A DNA stretch of 64,000 nucleotides from Synechococcus sp. J7-Johnson (GTDB taxonomy: Bacteria; Cyanobacteriota; Cyanobacteriia; PCC-6307; Cyanobiaceae): the NCBI RefSeq assembly GCF_024345795.1, contig NZ_JAGQBU010000006.1, positions 1 to 64,000 on the forward strand, written 5' to 3'. Positions 725 to 14,958 of this stretch are shown piece by piece (within the stretch, counting starts at the first letter, position 1; the number at the start of each line of letters is the position of its first letter). A model generated the notes under the pieces. It was given only the letters and a program-made list of their open reading frames with translations. It did no database searches and was not told where the DNA came from. Both the position numbers and the translations under genes were made by a program.

Positions 725-1669
725 TCAGGACAGCATCGATGTCGCGGCTGTGAGTGCCATCACCTGCTTCAAGTGCCGCTCAAAGAGCTCCGCAACCTCC
801 GAGGCGGGCAGATAGCGCCAAGCGGCGTGTGCACCGGCACTTCGCTCATAAGCGGTCTCGCAGGAAAACTTCTCAGCCACGCCAAGAGGCGCCGGCCGAG
901 AATCATAACGGGCTAAGTGCCGGGCAAAGAAAATGTCCTCCGGCTCCTCGGGTGGTGATCCGGCTGCCTCAGCCTCGCAGATCCGGCGCATCAATAATCG
1001 GTCCCGGATGGAGAGGCCGCCGTTTCCATTACTGAGGCCTTCGGGCACGGTGTCGCAGAAGCGGCGTGTTTCCCAACGGGGTGACAGTCGCTCGAACTGG
1101 GGTCCGTAGCAAGGAAACACTTCCGAACGGAAGCGCCCCTTGGCCCAGGGAGCTCCCACATAGCCGTAGGCAAATGCGGCCTGATCAGGAGGCTCGATTA
1201 GAAGGGTATCCGTCTGCACGATCAGCAGACGGGGAACGTCGAGCAGATCCCAGAAGGATGGGCTCTTGAGCAAGGTGTTGTAAGTGTGCCAGTCGAAACG
1301 CTCGCACCCCTGCACCCGCAGCCCCACCACTTGCACCCAGTCTTCTAGGCCGGCAAACAGCGCCCGGCTGGACTCGAGCACCGCCGGGGCCGTCACCAGG
1401 GTCAGGCGCCAGTGCAACCGGCCCATAAGCAAGGTGTTGAGCACGGTCATGCGCAGCAGAGGCGTTGGACGGTCATCCACGATCAGGGCTTGCATTCCCC
1501 GATCCAGCCGGACCCGCAGCTCCGGTCGGGCGGCCAGCTCGGGCAGTGCTTGCGACCACGGCTCCAGGTAAGTCCCCAACACCAACGCCGCATGGGCCTG
1601 GAACATGGCGATGCGGTAGGCCTCCAGCTGGAGGGTGGCGGTGTATGAATGCTGCCCCGTTCTGCTCAT
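725..1669 (-). CDS. DUF5672 family protein (glycosyltransferase-like)
   Basis: 314 aa. The central and C-terminal parts carry the pattern of DUF5672 proteins: YVGAPW near residue 170, GNGGLSIRDR near 215 and PEDIFFARHL near 240, with a preceding LLIVQTDTLL strand that could hold the metal-binding acidic residues of a GT-A-like fold. DUF5672 proteins are usually found in surface-polysaccharide clusters and are suspected glycosyltransferases; the substrate is unknown. The ATG start overlaps the stop of the upstream methyltransferase gene as ATGA, which suggests translational coupling. It is the last gene of a leftward three-gene run: sulfotransferase, methyltransferase, DUF5672. The family call is made from motifs, and the enzymatic role is inference. 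Confidence 0.7.
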   Translation of the reverse strand: MSRTGQHSYTATLQLEAYRIAMFQAHAALVLGTYLEPWSQALPELAARPELRVRLDRGMQALIVDDRPTPLLRMTVLNTLLMGRLHWRLTLVTAPAVLESSRALFAGLEDWVQVVGLRVQGCERFDWHTYNTLLKSPSFWDLLDVPRLLIVQTDTLLIEPPDQAAFAYGYVGAPWAKGRFRSEVFPCYGPQFERLSPRWETRRFCDTVPEGLSNGNGGLSIRDRLLMRRICEAEAAGSPPEEPEDIFFARHLARYDSRPAPLGVAEKFSCETAYERSAGAHAAWRYLPASEVAELFERHLKQVMALTAATSMLS

Positions 1670-2355
1670 CGGGCCGGACGGTAGGCCATCATCACCTGGT
1701 CACGCGGATGATTCCAGCCGCCGATGTACTCGGGCCGATAAGCATGCTGATGGCCAAAGGCCTCCATCTGGGCGCGTGTGTAAGCAAAAAAGCCGTGGTC
1801 GTGGGGGCTGCTGGGATTGGCCCGCTCCTGTTGCGCCTCAAAGAAGGTGGCGTAGAGAACCCCATCAGGTCGCAGACAGGGGCGCAGCCGTTCCAGGCAG
1901 CGCTCGATCAGAGCCGGTGGCAGATGGGTGAACAAAGACTGGGCGATGGCCACGTCCACGGACTGTCTCAAGCGGCCGAAGCGGAACTGACTATCACAAA
2001 GTATCCGGGGTGCCTTGCTCCGCCGCAGTTGTTCGCCCAACTCCTGCTCCAGGCCAGCGCGAATCAGGCTGCGCTCCTTCTCAATCCCCAGGTAGTGGCC
2101 CGGTTCCAGGTAAGGAATGGCTTTCACCCCCAGCCGCAACGCACCGCAGGCGATATCCAGCAGATAGTGGTCTGGCCGAAGCCCGCGTGCCCGCAGGAAA
2201 TCGAACTGCAGCTGTCCGATCGGCTCCCACAGACCACCCACGTACTCCCTGTGACCGCGAACCTCCAGGCCCCGCTCACCCTCCGGGTCAAGGGAGTCGC
2301 TCATGGGGACAGAGCGACTCAGCGAGCCCCGCAACATGGTCAGGATCCTGCGCAT
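1666..2355 (-). CDS. Class I SAM-dependent methyltransferase
   Basis: 229 aa. Residues about 65-90 read LLDIACGALRLGVKAIPYL, the glycine-containing SAM-binding motif I in the variant DIACGALRLG, followed by YLGIEKE, where the acidic residue after the second strand would bind the SAM ribose. VDVAIAQSLFTHLPP near residue 130 is motif II/III. The rest resembles small-molecule or glycan methyltransferases found in polysaccharide loci. It lies between a sulfotransferase and a DUF5672 gene on the same strand, 49 bp after the former and with a 4-bp ATGA overlap with the latter, so O-methylation of a sugar is the likeliest task. The acceptor is not determinable from sequence. Confidence 0.75.
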   Translation of the reverse strand: MRRILTMLRGSLSRSVPMSDSLDPEGERGLEVRGHREYVGGLWEPIGQLQFDFLRARGLRPDHYLLDIACGALRLGVKAIPYLEPGHYLGIEKERSLIRAGLEQELGEQLRRSKAPRILCDSQFRFGRLRQSVDVAIAQSLFTHLPPALIERCLERLRPCLRPDGVLYATFFEAQQERANPSSPHDHGFFAYTRAQMEAFGHQHAYRPEYIGGWNHPRDQVMMAYRPAR

Positions 2356-2404: not shown

Positions 2405-3163
2405 TCAAGGCCAGCGCAGGCCATAACGCTGTTCCATGGCGTCATAGGTTGAAGCGAGGCTGTGCCGCAAACACTCCCGAAGGGCTGGATCTATGTTCCT
2501 TGCTTCTCCATGGCCACTATTCTCCCGGGGTAAGTGTAATGGTGGCGGCACCTGAGGAAGCTCAAGGAAGGTCAGCAACCGGGGCCAGAGACGTTCCGGG
2601 GCCGTAAAGAGATCCTCGCTGCGGGCCACCAGGAGCTGGTGGGGTGGGAACAGGCCTTCGTAGCGCTCCAGCTGATGCTCGTAGCGACTTCGGCTTAGAT
2701 AGCTGTGAACCTGGTGGGAGTGGTGCTCCGCCTTCCCGGCAAGCAACAGCGCCTCTGCCACCGCAAGACGCTGCTCCTCAGCGGCCAGAGCCTGCTCCAA
2801 CGGCAGCGGTTCAAGACCCAGTCGAAGGGAGTGAAACAGACCGGAGAGGGTCCGCTCCACCGGGTCTCGCAGGAGCACGATCAGACGGATCTCGGGGAGG
2901 AGATCCTTGATCCGGCCAGGGGCAGCTGGATGAAACAAGTAGTAGGGAGTGATGTCTCCACAACGCTGGCCTGGCCCTGCCGCTGAGAACTGCTTGGCAT
3001 ACCAGTCCGGCCCACGGCTGTAGAACAGCGTGAAGTAATGCAGCTCCTTGCCAACCGGTAGATGGACCCGAGGATGGGACGACAACCAAACATGAAGCGT
3101 GGTAGTGCCGGCCTTCTGAGCCCCAAGGCCAAGAAAGTGTGGAAGCAACGCCCATGGGCTCAA
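2405..3163 (-). CDS. PAPS-dependent sulfotransferase
   Basis: 252 aa. FLGLGAQKAGTTTLHVWL at the N-terminus is the 5'-phosphosulfate-binding loop of the sulfotransferase superfamily, and IRLIVLLRDPVERTLSGL near residue 90-110 is the 3'-phosphate-binding motif with its Arg-Asp-Pro and Ser. Between them, GKELHYF and DITPYYLFHP fit the heparan-sulfate-type/bacterial sulfotransferase pattern. Such enzymes move sulfate from PAPS to a hydroxyl or amine on a carbohydrate. The first in-frame start is TTG at 3163, with a stop codon just upstream, so either TTG is used or a second TTG five codons in. It is divergent from another sulfotransferase-like gene 73 bp away, so the intergene probably holds two promoters. 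Confidence 0.85.
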   Translation of the reverse strand: MSPWALLPHFLGLGAQKAGTTTLHVWLSSHPRVHLPVGKELHYFTLFYSRGPDWYAKQFSAAGPGQRCGDITPYYLFHPAAPGRIKDLLPEIRLIVLLRDPVERTLSGLFHSLRLGLEPLPLEQALAAEEQRLAVAEALLLAGKAEHHSHQVHSYLSRSRYEHQLERYEGLFPPHQLLVARSEDLFTAPERLWPRLLTFLELPQVPPPLHLPRENSGHGEARNIDPALRECLRHSLASTYDAMEQRYGLRWP

Positions 3164-3236
3164 CAGAGTGAATCACCGTACCGACCCTGCCTGCCTGGTC
3201 TGCGCCAGTTCCGGCACGCGCACATCACAAGAATCC

Positions 3237-3842
3237 ATGATCATTGCTGACTCCTTTCTGTGGCTGCATCTTCCCAAGAGCGGCGGCACATCCATGACTC
3301 GGCTGTTCCGTGACTGGAATCTGCCCGGGATTCAGATCGACCCCGACGACACCCCGACCAAGCACGATTCGGTGCCCTTGCGAGAAAGCCGCGGAAAGTG
3401 GCGGGCCGGTTCGCGGCAGCGCTTCATCACCGCTCGCAGGCTCACCGCCTGGCTGGTGAGCGACTGGGAGCACAAACGGCGACACATGCACCTGCCCGAT
3501 CTTCCATTCGAACCGGTACGCAGCGGCCTGACCTATTCACTTCGACTGGGCGGGACCTGGGTGGCAGCCGACTGGTGGCTGCAGTATTTCGCCGCCGACA
3601 CCGACACAACCGCCCTGCGGCTCGAGCACCTGGCCGACGACCTGAACCGTGAGCTGCTGCCCCTGCTGCCAGCCGGCACCCAAGCCGTCAGGGCCCCCAA
3701 GCTGCCCCGCGAGAACGCCAAACCCGCCAACAACCTCTCGCAGCCGATGTTCAGCTCCGCGGATCTCGCACGGATCAGGGCGGTAAACCCCCGCTGGAGC
3801 GCCTGGGAGGAGCAGGTCTACGTCCCCCAAGCCCGCCCGTAG
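3237..3842 (+). CDS. Short sulfotransferase-like protein
   Basis: 201 aa from ATG at 3237; an upstream in-frame start at 3168 exists, but the conserved part begins FLWLHLPKSGGTSMTRLF, which is the phosphosulfate-binding loop and normally lies within 10-15 residues of the start. A classical LRDP 3'-phosphate motif is not visible; RFITARRLTAWLVSDW around residue 60-80 may be its counterpart. The C-terminal half ends with RAVNPRWSAWEEQVY, typical of the last helix in small bacterial sulfotransferases. Its target is presumably the glycan made by the neighbouring transferases. It is 26 bp upstream of the 985-aa sulfotransferase/GT2 gene and probably co-transcribed with it. Activity is less certain than for its divergent neighbour. 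Confidence 0.65.
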   Translation: MIIADSFLWLHLPKSGGTSMTRLFRDWNLPGIQIDPDDTPTKHDSVPLRESRGKWRAGSRQRFITARRLTAWLVSDWEHKRRHMHLPDLPFEPVRSGLTYSLRLGGTWVAADWWLQYFAADTDTTALRLEHLADDLNRELLPLLPAGTQAVRAPKLPRENAKPANNLSQPMFSSADLARIRAVNPRWSAWEEQVYVPQARP

Positions 3843-3868: not shown

Positions 3869-6826
3869 GTGACCCTGATCCTGCTGATGGGCATGCACCG
3901 CAGCGGGACCTCCCTGCTCGGCTCGCTGCTGGCCGGGCTGGGGGTTCCACTGCCCGGCAGGTTGATCGCTGGAGATCAACACAATCCCGGTGGCTATTAC
4001 GAGCGGGAAGACACCACGGCGATCCAGGAGCAGCTGCTGCGCGAACTCGGACGCTGGTGGCCCACCGAAGCCGGGCTGCTGCCACTCCCGGACGGCTGGC
4101 TGGAACTGCCCAGCACCGTGCGGGCTCGAAACAAGCTGAAGCTCTTGCTGCAGGGGGAACAGGACCGGCAAAAAGGCCCCTGGGCGATCAAGGATCCACG
4201 CATCTCCCTGCTGCTGCCCCTCTGGAGGCAGTTGTCTGGGCAACTCTCTCTGCCGCTTCGCCTGGTGATCAGCGTGCGGGATCCAGCTGAGGTGATTGTC
4301 TCACTCATGGAGCGCGACAGCCAGACGGCAGGCATGACCCCATGGCGAGCCCAGCGGCTCTGGTGGCACCACAACCGCCAGGCGCTCCTGGAGGCAGGCG
4401 GCCTGCCCCTGCTGGCCCTGGACTACGGAGCCTGGTTCGAGCCCCTCTCAGCCGAACGTCAGTTGCGTGCACTGGCGGCGTTCTGCGGAAGCAAGGATCC
4501 GATCCCCACGACCCTGGAACAGTTGCGGCTCCGGATCCGGCCCGGCTATCGCCGCAGCCACCGCGATGCGGCGGCCCTGCCGCTACCTGTTCATCCCCGC
4601 CTGCGTCAGTTTCAACGGAACCTGGGCGAGCTGGCCGGCCATGACGGCGATGCCCTGGAGCTGCAGGCGCTGCGACGCTGGCTGGAGCAGCAGGACTGCC
4701 AGCCCCTCCCCGAGCTTCCGCCCCACGGAGGCAGCCTGCGCTCCCGCCTGATCGCCGCACGGGCCCGTCGGGCACCCCAGTGCCCGACGGGTGGCTGGTT
4801 TGACGAGCCCCACTACCGCGCCCAGGTGCCTGCCCTACCAGCCGACCATCCCCCCCTGCTGCACTACTGGTGGCGCGGCTGGCGGGAGCATCGCTCGCCC
4901 CACCCTCTGTTTGATCCCGGCTTCTACGAGGCCGTCTGCCGCGACGAGGGCCTCACCCCCATGGGAGCTCCACTCCATCACTTTGTGACGTTGGGCCTGG
5001 CTCGAGGTCTCTCCCCCTGCCCCCTGGCCGATCCGGCGTGGGCACGGGCAGCACCCCAGCGTTGGGCGCTGTGGCGGGCGGCCCAGCTGGAGGGGATGCA
5101 CCCCTGGGGCGCCGCCGCACTGGCCCTAAGCGGCGGCCAGCTGGGCCCTGCGATCAAGCGGCTTCAGGGCTGGCTACAACATGGCTTGGACCCGGACACC
5201 CTGACAGCCATCCGCCTGGCAGAGCCCGCCGATTTCGCGCTGGTAGAAGAACTCCTGCCGGATTTTTCCCCGCTCCCCTCCCGCTGCCGCCTGGTGGGGA
5301 TCGGCACCTCCCCCAGCGATTGGCGCCTGCATGCCTGGCTGCAACGCTGCCCCCTGCCAGAGGGGTTCAGCCTGCTCGAGGAGAGCGAAGAGAACCCTGG
5401 CGCTGGCCGACTGGCACTCGTCCTGGAGCCCGTGCCGGCCGGCACGGCCAGCCTGGAGCTCCTTGGCCTGGCTCACCTGGCGCAGGTATGGGCCCCGGAC
5501 GCGGACACGGTGGAGCTTCTGCGGCGGCTTGGGGTGAACGCCCGGCAACTCGATGCCGACGTTCCAGCCAATGGCTGGCTGCAACAAGCCGGTGATGGAG
5601 CCGCCGCCAGCCTTCGGCTGGGGCTGCCGGACCCTGCCGCCCTGGGCTTATCCAGCACCTGTCCAGCGGGCAACCCTTCGGGCGTGCTTTGTCTGGGTAG
5701 TGCGGGCGAATCCTGGGAACGTCAATTACGGCCGCCCATATGGGCCTGGCCAGCGTTTGATCAGGTCGTGATTTCGGCACCCGAAGACGCGCGACTGCTG
5801 GCCAGCTGGCTCAATACCTGCAGCGCCAAGGGACTTCAGCTGGTGCGTCTGCAACCCAGCGAAGCGGAGCGCCACAGCCGCGCCTGGCGCGCTCTCGCCA
5901 GTCCTCGCGATCCCTCCCCCGGCTGGCTGCCCGCCCAGGCCTTCATGGCGCCACTCAGCCCTGCCGAGCTAATGGCGGAGCTGAACTGGCGAGCCTGCGG
6001 GCGCCAGCCTCCGGTTCTTGCCCCCACGCCACGGCCCGTGGTGCGGCAGCTGTGGAGCAGGAACTCCACTCAGCCGGTCACAGCGGCCGTCTGCATCAGC
6101 CTGTTCAACTACGGCGATCGGATCACGACGGCACTGGAGAGCGTGTATAGCCAGACCCATCCAGACCTGGAGCTGGTCGTGGTCGATGACGCCTCTGGCG
6201 ACGGGGGAGCGCAGACGGTGATCCGCTGGCTGGAAGAGCGGGGATCCCGCTTCCCGCGAGCTCTTGTGCTGCAGCACGAGCGGAATGGAGGGTTGGCCGC
6301 CAGCCGCAACACCGCCTTCGCCGCTGCAGCCGCTCCCTGGTGCTTCGTTCTCGATGCAGACAACCAACTCGAACCGGAGGCGGTGGCCCTCACCCTGAGC
6401 ATCGCCACAGTGGCTCCTGCCGCTATCGCGGTGGTGCATCCCCTGCTGGAAGTGGTGGCCAGCTCCGAACGGCCCGATGAGCAGCGCACTCTGATGACGG
6501 GCCGGAGCTGGCAGCGGACCCACTTCGAGCAGGGCAACTACGTAGACGCCATGACCCTGGTGCGGCGCTCTGCCTGGGAGCAGGTCGGTGGCTACCGCCA
6601 TATCCCCGGCGGTTGGGAGGACTACGACTTCTGGTGCAGCCTGATCGAGGCGGGATTCGAGGGCGTGCTTTGTCCCCAGCGGCTCGCCACCTACTTCAGC
6701 CATGGCTCCTCGATGTTGGCCACCGAAACCAACCTGCAAAGGCGAGCCGTGGCCCGTCAGCTACAACAACTGCATCCCTGGCTCACCCTGCCCCTCGCGC
6801 AGGCGTCGGAGGAAGCCACCCTCTGA
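3869..6826 (+). CDS. Sulfotransferase / FD-repeat / GT2 glycosyltransferase fusion
   Basis: 985 aa from GTG at 3869; an ATG six codons later is possible. Residues 1-200 form a sulfotransferase domain: LLMGMHRSGTSLLGSLL is the phosphosulfate loop, WAIKDPRISLLLPLW and LVISVRDPAEVIVSLM supply the 3'-phosphate motif. About 305-385 holds two copies of a pattern of the type WFDEPHYRA...PLLHYWWRGWREHRSPHPLFD, seen in many large bacterial glycosyltransferases. Residues 735-960 are a family 2 glycosyltransferase: VCISLFNYGDRITTALESVY, VVDDASGDGG (near 771), VLDADNQLEPEA for the DXD region and GGWEDYDFWCSLIEAGF for the acceptor/catalytic region. One protein could therefore add a sugar and sulfate it. 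The region 400-730 is not recognised. It is the longest gene of the island. Confidence 0.8.
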   Translation: MTLILLMGMHRSGTSLLGSLLAGLGVPLPGRLIAGDQHNPGGYYEREDTTAIQEQLLRELGRWWPTEAGLLPLPDGWLELPSTVRARNKLKLLLQGEQDRQKGPWAIKDPRISLLLPLWRQLSGQLSLPLRLVISVRDPAEVIVSLMERDSQTAGMTPWRAQRLWWHHNRQALLEAGGLPLLALDYGAWFEPLSAERQLRALAAFCGSKDPIPTTLEQLRLRIRPGYRRSHRDAAALPLPVHPRLRQFQRNLGELAGHDGDALELQALRRWLEQQDCQPLPELPPHGGSLRSRLIAARARRAPQCPTGGWFDEPHYRAQVPALPADHPPLLHYWWRGWREHRSPHPLFDPGFYEAVCRDEGLTPMGAPLHHFVTLGLARGLSPCPLADPAWARAAPQRWALWRAAQLEGMHPWGAAALALSGGQLGPAIKRLQGWLQHGLDPDTLTAIRLAEPADFALVEELLPDFSPLPSRCRLVGIGTSPSDWRLHAWLQRCPLPEGFSLLEESEENPGAGRLALVLEPVPAGTASLELLGLAHLAQVWAPDADTVELLRRLGVNARQLDADVPANGWLQQAGDGAAASLRLGLPDPAALGLSSTCPAGNPSGVLCLGSAGESWERQLRPPIWAWPAFDQVVISAPEDARLLASWLNTCSAKGLQLVRLQPSEAERHSRAWRALASPRDPSPGWLPAQAFMAPLSPAELMAELNWRACGRQPPVLAPTPRPVVRQLWSRNSTQPVTAAVCISLFNYGDRITTALESVYSQTHPDLELVVVDDASGDGGAQTVIRWLEERGSRFPRALVLQHERNGGLAASRNTAFAAAAAPWCFVLDADNQLEPEAVALTLSIATVAPAAIAVVHPLLEVVASSERPDEQRTLMTGRSWQRTHFEQGNYVDAMTLVRRSAWEQVGGYRHIPGGWEDYDFWCSLIEAGFEGVLCPQRLATYFSHGSSMLATETNLQRRAVARQLQQLHPWLTLPLAQASEEATL

Positions 6827-10312: not shown

Positions 10313-12364
10313 ATGCCTCTGAGAGTCTCGATCGTTGTCCCATTCCGAAACCAGGGAGTGCTTCTCTGCCAGGCTTGCCGGTCGCTACAAGCGCAGACAA
10401 TGGCGGAGTGGGAGTGTCTGCTGATCGACGATGGCTCAGAGGAGGAGAGCGTGCGCATCGCAACCACTCTGGTGGCAAGCGACCCGCGCTTCTGCCTTTT
10501 GCATGTCGCTGATCCCGACCACTTCCCGGGCCCTTGGCTGGCACGCAACCTTGGCATCTCAGCCGCCAGAGCAGAGTTAGTGGCATTTCTGGATGCTGAC
10601 GATCTCTGGCACCCGAAGAAACTAGAAACGCAGCTGGACGTTCACACCCGGCTGAACGTGCATCTCTCTGTCACGGGGTACTACAGGTTCGAGGAGCGAG
10701 ACCTCAAAGTTCGGGAATACAGAATCCCTCCAAGAAGCATTCGTTATGGACAACTCTTTTTAGGGAATGTCATTCCACTTTCCTCCGTACTGGCGCATAA
10801 ATCATTGCTGCGCCATGGGTTTCAGCCCGAGCGACACGAAGACTATGGTCTTTGGCTGAGACTTTTTGCCAACAATTCACCACTGGCCTACGGGTGCGTC
10901 TCAGATGCCTTGATGGCCTATCGGCTGCACGGCGCCTCTCTTTCATCTAAACGTGAATGGAGTATTTTAGCAGTTGAGAAGCTGTTTCGCAAGCAAATCA
11001 GCAATCGCTTGCTCAGCCGCTTCGCAGCAACGACTTGGCTACTGATACGCTGCTGCAGCCTTCTGATTTCACTGACTACTGCACGGCTAAGAGCGCCTCA
11101 GAAACTACCTAGAGCCTTTGCCCAGTTCATTGTAGGCAGCTATCAGCATAACGGCAGCCTGAAAGACGTCACAACAAGCTCCGATGATGCTTCACGTATC
11201 ATTCAGGAAATGTCACCAGCCGGCTGGATTCAACTACTCAGAGAGTGGCCTCCTGGCTATGGGGGCATCGAAAGAGTGGCCCATGAGATGTCGGACTCCT
11301 GGCAGAAAAGAGGAATGTCATCTATCACCCTAAGCCTCAAGTCGGCGACACAGATGGAAGCAGATCCCCTACCGGCCTCCTATGCACGCTCCTCGCTGCC
11401 TCACCTGAGCTTTGGCCAGCTGCTCGTTCCCCTCCCACATCGACGAATCCTGGCTGTCCTGTTGAGCCCCGCACCTCTGTATGTCCACCTCCCCTGTCCG
11501 TCCCTCCTGGTAATCAGCATTCTTGCCAGGCTGCTGCAACCACAACGCCGCATCAGCCTGCACTGGCATGTATTTCTTGAGCGGGTACCTGGACCACGTG
11601 GATGGCTGATCACCGTCTATCAGTGGCTGGCTCTGCGATGGGCCGCTTGGGGGGTTCAACAGGTGATAACGACTTCACCGGTATTGGCGGCAGCCTTGCG
11701 TGCCGAAGGGGTACCGTGCAAGCGGCTCGCTGTACTGCCCTGCTGCCTGAGCGAATCAACTGAAATGGCGGCAGCGGCCATCTGGAAGCGGCGGCTGTCT
11801 GTGGAAAAACACCATTCCACCGAAGGCTTCAGGGTCCTCTTCATCGGCCGGCTGAACAGGTACAAACGGGTGGATTGGCTGATCAAAGCCTTTACGATCA
11901 GCCAGGCCACTTCGCTTGAGATCGTGGGAGATGGGGTCATGCGGGCGGATCTCGAAATTCTTGCCCGTTGCAGTCCCAAGGCAGATTCAATCCGCTTTCA
12001 TGGCCGGGTTACGGAACAGTTCAAAGCCAGCCTGTTGGAGTTCAGCGATCTTTTGGTTCTACCAGCCGACCAGAGCAACGAAGCATTCGGGATCGTACAA
12101 CTTGAATCGATGGCATGTGGTGTGCCGGCTCTGGCCCTTGAGCGAGCGCGCTCCGGCATGACATGGGTGAGCGCCCTCGGAGAGTCACTGGGCAATCCAC
12201 AACCATGGCCATTACAGGGTCCAGAGGATCTGGCCACAGCAATGACTCTCCTGGCCATGCGGCCAGACTGGTATCGAAAAGCAATGATGGCAGCACGACT
12301 GCGATATGAAAAATTGTTCGCAAGACGAATCTGGCAACAACAGCTGGAAACAATTATAGAATGA
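10313..12364 (+). CDS. Bifunctional GT2-GT4 glycosyltransferase
   Basis: 683 aa with two catalytic modules. Residues 1-210 are GT2: VSIVVPFRNQGVLLCQACRS, LLIDDGSEEES and ELVAFLDADDLWHPKKLE give the nucleotide-binding and DXD motifs, and ERHEDYGLWLRLF the acceptor region. From about 310 a GT4 module begins with WPPGYGGIERVAHEMSDSW; LFIGRLNRYKRVDWLIKAF (near 508) and NEAFGIVQLESMACGVP (near 590, E-x7-E) are its donor-binding motifs. The linker at about 215-300 is more basic and helical. A protein with an inverting and a retaining transferase would add two successive sugars. The last bases overlap the next GT4 gene as ATGA. Base composition begins to shift towards AT in this gene. Confidence 0.85.
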   Translation: MPLRVSIVVPFRNQGVLLCQACRSLQAQTMAEWECLLIDDGSEEESVRIATTLVASDPRFCLLHVADPDHFPGPWLARNLGISAARAELVAFLDADDLWHPKKLETQLDVHTRLNVHLSVTGYYRFEERDLKVREYRIPPRSIRYGQLFLGNVIPLSSVLAHKSLLRHGFQPERHEDYGLWLRLFANNSPLAYGCVSDALMAYRLHGASLSSKREWSILAVEKLFRKQISNRLLSRFAATTWLLIRCCSLLISLTTARLRAPQKLPRAFAQFIVGSYQHNGSLKDVTTSSDDASRIIQEMSPAGWIQLLREWPPGYGGIERVAHEMSDSWQKRGMSSITLSLKSATQMEADPLPASYARSSLPHLSFGQLLVPLPHRRILAVLLSPAPLYVHLPCPSLLVISILARLLQPQRRISLHWHVFLERVPGPRGWLITVYQWLALRWAAWGVQQVITTSPVLAAALRAEGVPCKRLAVLPCCLSESTEMAAAAIWKRRLSVEKHHSTEGFRVLFIGRLNRYKRVDWLIKAFTISQATSLEIVGDGVMRADLEILARCSPKADSIRFHGRVTEQFKASLLEFSDLLVLPADQSNEAFGIVQLESMACGVPALALERARSGMTWVSALGESLGNPQPWPLQGPEDLATAMTLLAMRPDWYRKAMMAARLRYEKLFARRIWQQQLETIIE

Positions 12365-13452: not shown

Positions 13453-14189
13453 TCTCTGCCCGTGACGTATGGCTACGCATACCAATTTACTCCAGTGAGA
13501 CTCGTAGTCTTAAATCCGTACTTCTCCGCTCAGTGACCGGTGGCAACCTGCGCAGGGTTGGCTCGGGTGCAGAGATAGAAGCTGTACGTGGAGTCACCTG
13601 CACAATAAATCATGGCGAGCGCGTGGCCTTGATCGGTCACAATGGCGCAGGGAAATCCACTTTTCTGAAACTGCTGAGTGGCATCTATCAGCCGACTCAA
13701 GGCCACCTGAGCACCAGTGTAGCAGTCCATCCGATGATTCAGAAGAGCTTTATCACTAGTAATGAGCTCAGTGGATTGCAGGCAGCCAAAGCTCACTATC
13801 TTCTCGTCAATGGTACCCTTCATGGTTTTCAGCAATTTCTTGATGATGTCATCAACTTCTCCGGACTTGGAGACTTCATTCACCTTCCTGTTAGAAGCTA
13901 TAGCGAAGGAATGGGAGCTAGATTGCTTTTTTCACTGCTCACAGGCAGCAAGCACGAATGCTTGGCCTTAGATGAAGGATTTGGAGCTGGCGATAGCAGC
14001 TTCTATGAGAAAGCAGAACAGCGCATGAGGGTTTTCGTTGAGTCAGCAGGAACGCTCATTCTTGCCTCTCACTCCGATGATTTGCTGCGAAAGTTCTGCA
14101 AACGCGGCCTTGTCTTTGACCAGGGACGCCTTGTTTGTGATTCGAAGCTGGACGAAGCACTTTCTTATTATCATGGCACCCATTACTGA
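13350..14189 (+). CDS. ABC exporter ATPase, Wzt/KpsT type
   Basis: 279 aa. Walker A GHNGAGKST lies near residue 95, the ABC signature SEGMGARLLFSLL near 183, Walker B CLALDEGFGAGD near 206 and the H-loop LILASHSDD near 237. The conserved domain starts at about PVISARDVWLRIPIY (nt 13450), where no ATG, GTG or TTG is in frame; the only usable start is ATG at 13350, giving a 34-residue low-complexity extension and a 103-bp overlap with the glycosyltransferase gene. The protein stops after the nucleotide-binding domain and lacks the C-terminal carbohydrate-binding domain found in long Wzt proteins. With the following permease it should export a lipid-linked polysaccharide across the inner membrane. 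Confidence 0.85.
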   Translation: MVRAVKPGVPTGKPIGPQPSTAGHSGGTGSSEPVISARDVWLRIPIYSSETRSLKSVLLRSVTGGNLRRVGSGAEIEAVRGVTCTINHGERVALIGHNGAGKSTFLKLLSGIYQPTQGHLSTSVAVHPMIQKSFITSNELSGLQAAKAHYLLVNGTLHGFQQFLDDVINFSGLGDFIHLPVRSYSEGMGARLLFSLLTGSKHECLALDEGFGAGDSSFYEKAEQRMRVFVESAGTLILASHSDDLLRKFCKRGLVFDQGRLVCDSKLDEALSYYHGTHY

Positions 14190-14958
14190 CACCCTCTGCT
14201 ATGCCTGGCAGTCACGCAGAGCTTGGTGGTTCACTGCAACTGCAAGAACACGTGCGCGTTTTGCTAGAACACTCTTTGGCAGCTTCTGGCTTGGGCTGTC
14301 CAACCTTTTGTCAATTGCAGCCCTTGCTGTTGTTTACGGCATAGTTTTCAAAGTTGAAAGCTTTTCGACATATGTAGTCTTTCTAGGCCTGGGCCTGACT
14401 GTTTGGAATGGGATATCACTATCTCTCAGCTCTTCTCCGACTCTCTTTGAACATAACTCTAATCACCTCCACAATACTAATATAAATCCAATCTTCTATG
14501 CCCTTGAAGAATGGTCCTTTCTTGTCCAGACATTCCTTCAGTCGTTTATACTTATTATATTGGCACTCAGTCTTATCCAGCATTCTTTAATTCGCAATTT
14601 TCTCTTGCTGTCATGGCTCCCGCTGATCAATCTTTTTGCTTTCTTTTTTTGGGCCCCGTTGATCGTATGCTTGTTAGGAGCACGGTATCGCGATCTCTAT
14701 CAGCTAGTTCCAATTGTACTACAATTGGTCTTCCTGCTTTCTCCAATACTCTATGAGAAAGAACGACTTGGTCCCTTGATGTGGACAGCAACCTTTAATC
14801 CACTCTACCAAATTCTTAGCTCTCTACGTGATGGCCTGATCTCCGGGCAAATCCAATGGGTTCCAGTGCTTGTCGGGCTTCTAATTAATATAGTTGGATT
14901 TATACTATCACTTTGGCTACTTGAAAAAGAACGCAGGCATCTTCCCTTTCTAGTATAG
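14173..14958 (+). CDS. ABC exporter permease, Wzm/KpsM type
   Basis: 261 aa from ATG at 14173, overlapping the ATPase gene by 17 bp; a longer frame from 14038 would bury 45 residues in that gene. The protein begins with an amphipathic stretch, then ARFARTLFGSFWLGLSNL, the hallmark N-terminal region of ABC-2 polysaccharide permeases, followed by about six hydrophobic segments (for example LAVVYGIVFKV, FILIILALSLIQH, LLINIVGFILSLWLL). It would form the transmembrane dimer partnered with the preceding ATPase. The DNA is strikingly AT-rich compared with the flanking housekeeping genes, with many AGA/ATA/TTA-type codons, so the exporter module looks recently acquired. Confidence 0.87.
   Translation: MAPITDTLCYAWQSRRAWWFTATARTRARFARTLFGSFWLGLSNLLSIAALAVVYGIVFKVESFSTYVVFLGLGLTVWNGISLSLSSSPTLFEHNSNHLHNTNINPIFYALEEWSFLVQTFLQSFILIILALSLIQHSLIRNFLLLSWLPLINLFAFFFWAPLIVCLLGARYRDLYQLVPIVLQLVFLLSPILYEKERLGPLMWTATFNPLYQILSSLRDGLISGQIQWVPVLVGLLINIVGFILSLWLLEKERRHLPFLV

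Follow-up and report, generated by a model that had tools for sequence, protein, structure and literature searches.

WsaE from Geobacillus stearothermophilus contains an N-terminal methyltransferase domain followed by two rhamnosyltransferase domains and works within a Wzm/Wzt system; its methyltransferase has been proposed to terminate the chain (PMC2943079). In the cyanobacterium Synechocystis PCC 6803, the xss cluster for the sulfated exopolysaccharide synechan contains two sulfotransferases and eight glycosyltransferases together with Wzx/Wzy (PMC8205485). A word-match search of the open-licence literature turned up no bacterial protein described as a fusion of sulfotransferase and glycosyltransferase.

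Such a fusion is encoded in Synechococcus sp. J7-Johnson, within a stretch of 64,000 nucleotides (the window) that starts at base 1 of contig NZ_JAGQBU010000006.1, in a genome of 2.99 Mb and 68 contigs with strains of Synechococcus and Cyanobium as its nearest named relatives. By sequence comparison, the protein is not a one-off: its plan, (tailoring enzyme)-FD-FD-GT-B-GT2, is widespread, and here a sulfotransferase is the tailoring enzyme. With a probability of roughly 0.6, it acts as a bifunctional glycosyltransferase that tailors a sulfated surface polysaccharide destined for ABC export, with a decayed GT-B domain as a bridge between the two ends.

The fused gene, its relatives and its surroundings

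The preliminary description of this DNA placed a sulfotransferase and a GT2 glycosyltransferase in one 985-residue protein, and named a frame error, or homologues with the two halves always in separate genes, as grounds for giving up that claim. Neither was found. The GC bias among codon positions keeps a single phase over the full ORF 3869-6826, so an internal frame shift is not indicated. The relative L021 is 91% identical to the window protein and aligns with it gap-free across all 985 residues. Judged by dN/dS against this relative, every domain is under purifying selection, with values of 0.241 for the sulfotransferase, 0.236 for the middle domain and 0.14 for GT2 (range 0.14-0.25 when the FD repeats are included) and 0.56 for the helical linker. 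Because of the gap-free alignment and the low dN/dS in every domain, the fusion is considered real and maintained. A frame error or assembly artefact that merged two genes was therefore rejected, on the continuous codon bias, on L021 with dN/dS well under 1 and on the 30 non-identical fused relatives, and can be dismissed for practical purposes.

A match to the fusion protein was found in 63 of 400 genomes of the window's family, and the middle domain in seven of 386 genomes sampled across the phylum, all seven from that same family. After three truncated duplicates were taken out, the non-identical proteins comprised 30 of the form sulfotransferase-middle-GT2, spread over picocyanobacteria, six without the sulfotransferase and three with GT2 as the next gene; the fused state is thus the commonest. 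In a tree with weak deep branches, the split-GT2 forms make up one clade, and the forms without the sulfotransferase can require as many as four changes, of which two or more are firm; two of these forms are nested in fused Prochlorococcus. Some relatives have no sulfotransferase at all, so this domain is dispensable for the GT2 step. Beside the Prochlorococcus genes without this domain, L033 and L038 encode on the minus strand a separate protein, 726-749 aa long, whose sulfotransferase domain is distantly related. In genome G001, a TAA stop near the 3' end interrupts the fused gene (L005), and sister strains carry intact copies. Another relative, of 1388 aa (L127:916-5082, minus strand, genome G279), contains, as read from its sequence, a sulfotransferase, one FD repeat and the first lobe of the middle, followed by an unrelated GT2 and a GT4; this different C-terminal glycosyltransferase pair indicates that modules are exchanged.

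The polysaccharide island around the fused gene also encodes several glycosyltransferases and a second sulfotransferase, with an ABC-2 exporter pair at a greater distance (Table 1). In many relatives, the stand-alone sulfotransferase, the small gene with the HLPKSGGTSM motif and the fusion are kept together, and in Prochlorococcus L034, L036 and L037 the exporter pair adjoins the fusion. The same island encodes a second fused glycosyltransferase, GT2 then GT4, of 683 aa (10313-12364, plus strand). A DUF5672 protein and a methyltransferase (725-2355, minus strand) accompany the stand-alone sulfotransferase in several relatives.

Table 1. Positions in the window of the fused gene, its domains and motifs, and neighbouring genes
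Feature	Position	Strand	Basis
Fused gene sulfotransferase-FD-FD-pseudo-GT-B-GT2 (putative)	3869..6826	+	Open ORF, GTG start, 985 aa
Sulfotransferase domain, residues 1-275	3869..4693	+	Motifs, conservation; relatives match PF13469/PF00685
5'-Phosphosulfate-binding loop GMHRSGTS, residues 8-15	3890..3913	+	Motif conservation in 16 sequences
3'-Phosphate-binding motif R137...S145...R149	4277..4315	+	Invariant in 16 sequences; aligned stretch in human TPST1
FD repeat 1, residues 309-345	4793..4903	+	Repeat profile
FD repeat 2, residues 346-384	4904..5020	+	Repeat profile
Helical linker, residues 401-469	5069..5275	+	AlphaFold2 model
Middle domain, residues 470-712, shrunken GT-B-like fold, probably non-catalytic	5276..6004	+	Model, fold and profile comparison, polar-residue loss
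GT2 glycosyltransferase domain (GT-A fold), residues 736-975	6074..6793	+	Pfam; fold match to K4CP
DXD metal/nucleotide motif DADN, residues 829-832	6353..6364	+	D829, D831 invariant in 51 sequences
Catalytic-base region WEDYDFW, residues 916-922	6614..6634	+	E917, D918, D920 invariant in 51 sequences
Stand-alone sulfotransferase	2405..3163	-	PF13469 E 1.1e-11; near fusion in many relatives
Small gene, PAPS-loop-like motif HLPKSGGTSM	3168..3842	+	No Pfam match; conserved beside fusion
ABC exporter ATPase (Wzt-like), 279 aa	13350..14189	+	PF00005
ABC-2 exporter membrane protein (Wzm-like)	14038..14958	+	PF01061

The two ends and the FD repeats

Both PAPS-binding motifs that the preliminary description had reported near the N-terminus were confirmed, and with them the window protein carries the 5'-PSB loop and the 3'-PB motif R-x7-S that mark a PAPS-dependent sulfotransferase. 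Six of the eight positions of the GMHRSGTS loop are invariant in 16 sequences and the remaining two are conserved to at least 90%; H10, R11, S12, G13, S15, R137, S145 and R149 are all invariant. The window protein's own Pfam score for a sulfotransferase lies under the cut-off (E 0.14-0.2). Among 20 relatives, ten match Sulfotransfer_3 (best E 2.8e-6) and four match Sulfotransfer_1 (best E 1.9e-6). A profile of the domain matches protein-tyrosine sulfotransferase 1 (E 0.003), aligned across the 3'-phosphate motif, and an NCBIfam search with the domain returned no named family. An APS kinase is encoded in the host genome, which gives the cell a means of making PAPS.

At the other end, the GT2 motifs that had been noticed at residues 735-960 are borne out by a PF00535 match to residues 741-905 (E 8.7e-22), and D829-x-D831 and E917-D918 are invariant across 51 sequences from several phyla. 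The GT2 part of the model has the GT-A fold, the best-scoring solved structure being the chondroitin polymerase K4CP (PDB 2z86/2z87; Z 24.2, 238 residues, 3.0 A). A structural search with the full-length model returned GT2 matches only, among the matches listed, and is therefore silent on the other domains. Judged from these conserved motifs, the two ends are two apparently intact active sites.

The two FD-type repeats placed earlier at about residues 305-385 were located there precisely (Table 1). The consensus of the 38-residue repeat is PLFDPAWYLRRYPDVAAAGLDPLEHYLRVGAAEGRSPH. The profile of this consensus was seeded partly with the window's own two copies; a profile from non-cyanobacterial loci alone recovered both repeats at 9.3 and 6.1 bits, and the best score among 1000 shuffled control proteins was 4.8 bits. 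No Pfam model covers the repeats in a search of the window protein, and their AlphaFold2 model has low confidence. Repeats of this kind, noted earlier as occurring in other large bacterial transferases, are present in (tailoring enzyme)-FD-FD-GT-B-GT2 proteins. The accompanying suggestion was that they may hold the chain; they are missing in most fused relatives, where the linker is shorter, and so cannot be essential for that role. The FD repeats look like optional spacers. A widespread methyltransferase-(FD-FD)-GT-B-GT2 architecture, in L062, L071, L086, L087, L049 and others, includes this 38-residue repeat without a Pfam model.

The middle domain

The preliminary description had left the middle of the protein unassigned and proposed structure prediction to look for a hidden GT-B or carbohydrate-binding fold. 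Assignment from sequence alone indeed failed, since residues 470-735 have no sequence match in Pfam or the PDB. A model of the middle by itself, built with 22 sequences (mean pLDDT 85.5, pTM 0.84), predicts two small Rossmann-like lobes of alternating beta-alpha structure. Foldseek with this model found nothing under E 0.001. Among the best 50 fold matches, every one with at least 143 aligned residues, and hence with both lobes covered, is a GT-B-fold enzyme, and the non-GT-B matches cover one lobe only. HepE has the best Z (5.0, 190 residues, 5.1 A), and the other both-lobe matches include UDP-GlcNAc 2-epimerase (GT-B fold), MshA, GumK, WaaG, TagF, trehalose-phosphate synthases and Gtf3. A Z below 8 can be due to chance and all both-lobe GT-B matches have Z of at most 5.0, so the fold alone is no proof of descent. 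A carbohydrate-binding module had no Pfam support and was absent among the fold matches listed, which counts against it without excluding it.

In other phyla, the slot between the FD repeats and GT2 is occupied by a Pfam-recognisable GT-B domain (PF13524, PF13692, PF00534); it precedes the same GT2 family, encoded either within one polypeptide or by the gene next upstream. A profile of the cyanobacterial middle weakly found six ORFs directly adjoining such GT2 genes (E 0.002 to 0.65). In profile-profile comparison (hhalign), the middle aligned with GT-B ORFs beside GT2 in other phyla at P 5.5e-4 (103 columns, probability 30%), and with larger sets at P 0.005 (166 columns, probability 7%). P was 0.07-0.8 for most of the control pairs and reversed profiles, and one control pair, GT2 versus the fused set, reached P 0.003 via a 24-residue end overlap. 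Against a second set, of fused GT-B domains, the middle had no match (P 0.16).

Positions with a polar residue conserved to at least 80% number one in the middle (39 sequences), at which the window protein has alanine, versus 26 in the GT-B relatives; this difference is most naturally read as a loss of catalysis. The middle thus lacks the conserved catalytic and donor-binding polar residues of GT-B enzymes, no conserved acid, base or basic residue being left across the 39 sequences, and it is about 265 residues long as against roughly 400 in the GT-B relatives. What is conserved in it are glycines, tryptophans and prolines. The purifying selection on the domain indicates that it still matters. 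GT-B ancestry and loss of catalysis are moderately supported by these comparisons, with two lobes and exclusively GT-B enzymes among the matches over both lobes on one side and low Z and the empty Foldseek search on the other, and the middle is best read as a shrunken pseudo-GT-B scaffold.

A middle that still works, either as a very divergent GT-B enzyme with a donor or acceptor of its own or as a sugar-binding module, would make the protein trifunctional like WsaE. Such a middle would agree with a selection as strong as that on the sulfotransferase, with the conserved glycines, tryptophans and prolines, and with the apparently intact GT-B that fills the slot in relatives. It is hard to reconcile with the reduced size, with the loss of every conserved charged residue and with the departure of the window protein from the single conserved polar position, and we regard a working middle as improbable.

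Proposed function and comparison with known systems

The preliminary suggestion that a single polypeptide adds a sugar and then sulfates it is plausible. For the bifunctional protein favoured here, we infer the following order. The C-terminal GT2 domain would add one sugar from a nucleotide donor onto the growing cytoplasmic glycan, and the N-terminal domain, with PAPS as the donor, would then sulfate this sugar, or one near it, before the chain is let go. The middle, as a probable shrunken descendant of a GT-B domain that has lost its active site, may now serve as a structural bridge or as a cradle for the acceptor chain linking the two active domains, with the FD repeats as dispensable spacers. 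The finished chain would leave via the neighbouring Wzm/Wzt pair.

The two domains might instead act uncoupled on different sugars or glycans, the fusion merely ensuring co-expression and co-localisation. The persistence of forms without the sulfotransferase and with GT2 split off, and the swapped C-terminal modules of L127, point in that direction; the predominance of the fused state and the sulfotransferase motifs kept in the fused forms examined do not, and independent action of the two domains appears possible but rather unlikely. By analogy with the proposal for the WsaE methyltransferase, the sulfotransferase could also cap the chain, a terminal sulfate halting elongation and setting the length. 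The domain order, a modifier followed by glycosyltransferases, is the same in both proteins, and ABC exporter genes lie next to the fusion in several Prochlorococcus. Cap-recognising Wzt proteins carry a C-terminal domain that reads the chain end. The Wzt-like ATPase of the window is too short for such a domain, which makes capping by a terminal sulfate less likely, and relatives without the sulfotransferase also speak against it; in our estimate the odds are clearly unfavourable. Slightly less probable again is the broader idea that in picocyanobacteria a sulfate cap terminates an ABC-exported polysaccharide and determines its size, the dead GT-B domain lying between the sites of extension and capping as a ruler or as a scaffold that holds the chain.

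If both ends cooperate, as in the sequential reading preferred here, one gene would couple chain extension and sulfation, and single-residue mutations could then directly test how a surface polymer of picocyanobacteria is patterned with sulfate. Polymers of this kind may play a part in metal binding, salt tolerance, grazing and phage attachment. The decayed GT-B domain is the most interesting part of the fusion, since it looks like a glycosyltransferase shrinking to a structural part while its neighbours are still active.

How does the fusion compare with other proteins? The (tailoring enzyme)-FD-FD-GT-B-GT2 plan is found in many bacteria, often with a methyltransferase first. The methyltransferase-FD-FD-GT-B-GT2 proteins of L062, L071, L086 and L087 share the FD repeats, the GT2 family and the domain order with the window protein, but have a methyltransferase in place of the sulfotransferase and a full-sized, Pfam-recognised GT-B. 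Full-sized GT-B domains are also found together with a sulfotransferase: L083 from Kiritimatiellae has sulfotransferase-(coil)-GT-B-GT2 in one protein, and L045 and L084 from Proteobacteria have sulfotransferase-FD-GT-B beside GT2 as a separate adjacent gene. K4CP, similar in the fold of its GT2, differs in having two GT2 domains and no sulfotransferase. The synechan cluster likewise combines cyanobacterial sulfotransferases and glycosyltransferases, but as separate genes with Wzx/Wzy, unlike the fused gene of the window in an island with an ABC exporter (PMC8205485). WsaE, likened here by domain plan alone, also has a tailoring enzyme first, then glycosyltransferase domains, and a Wzm/Wzt pathway; it methylates and has two active rhamnosyltransferases, whereas the window protein has a sulfotransferase and a shrunken, apparently inactive first glycosyltransferase slot (PMC2943079). 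The N-terminus of the window protein is sulfotransferase-like, no methyltransferase family being matched, and catalytic residues are kept in GT2 only. As the plan recurs with methyltransferases in other phyla, the reading given here would extend past one genome.
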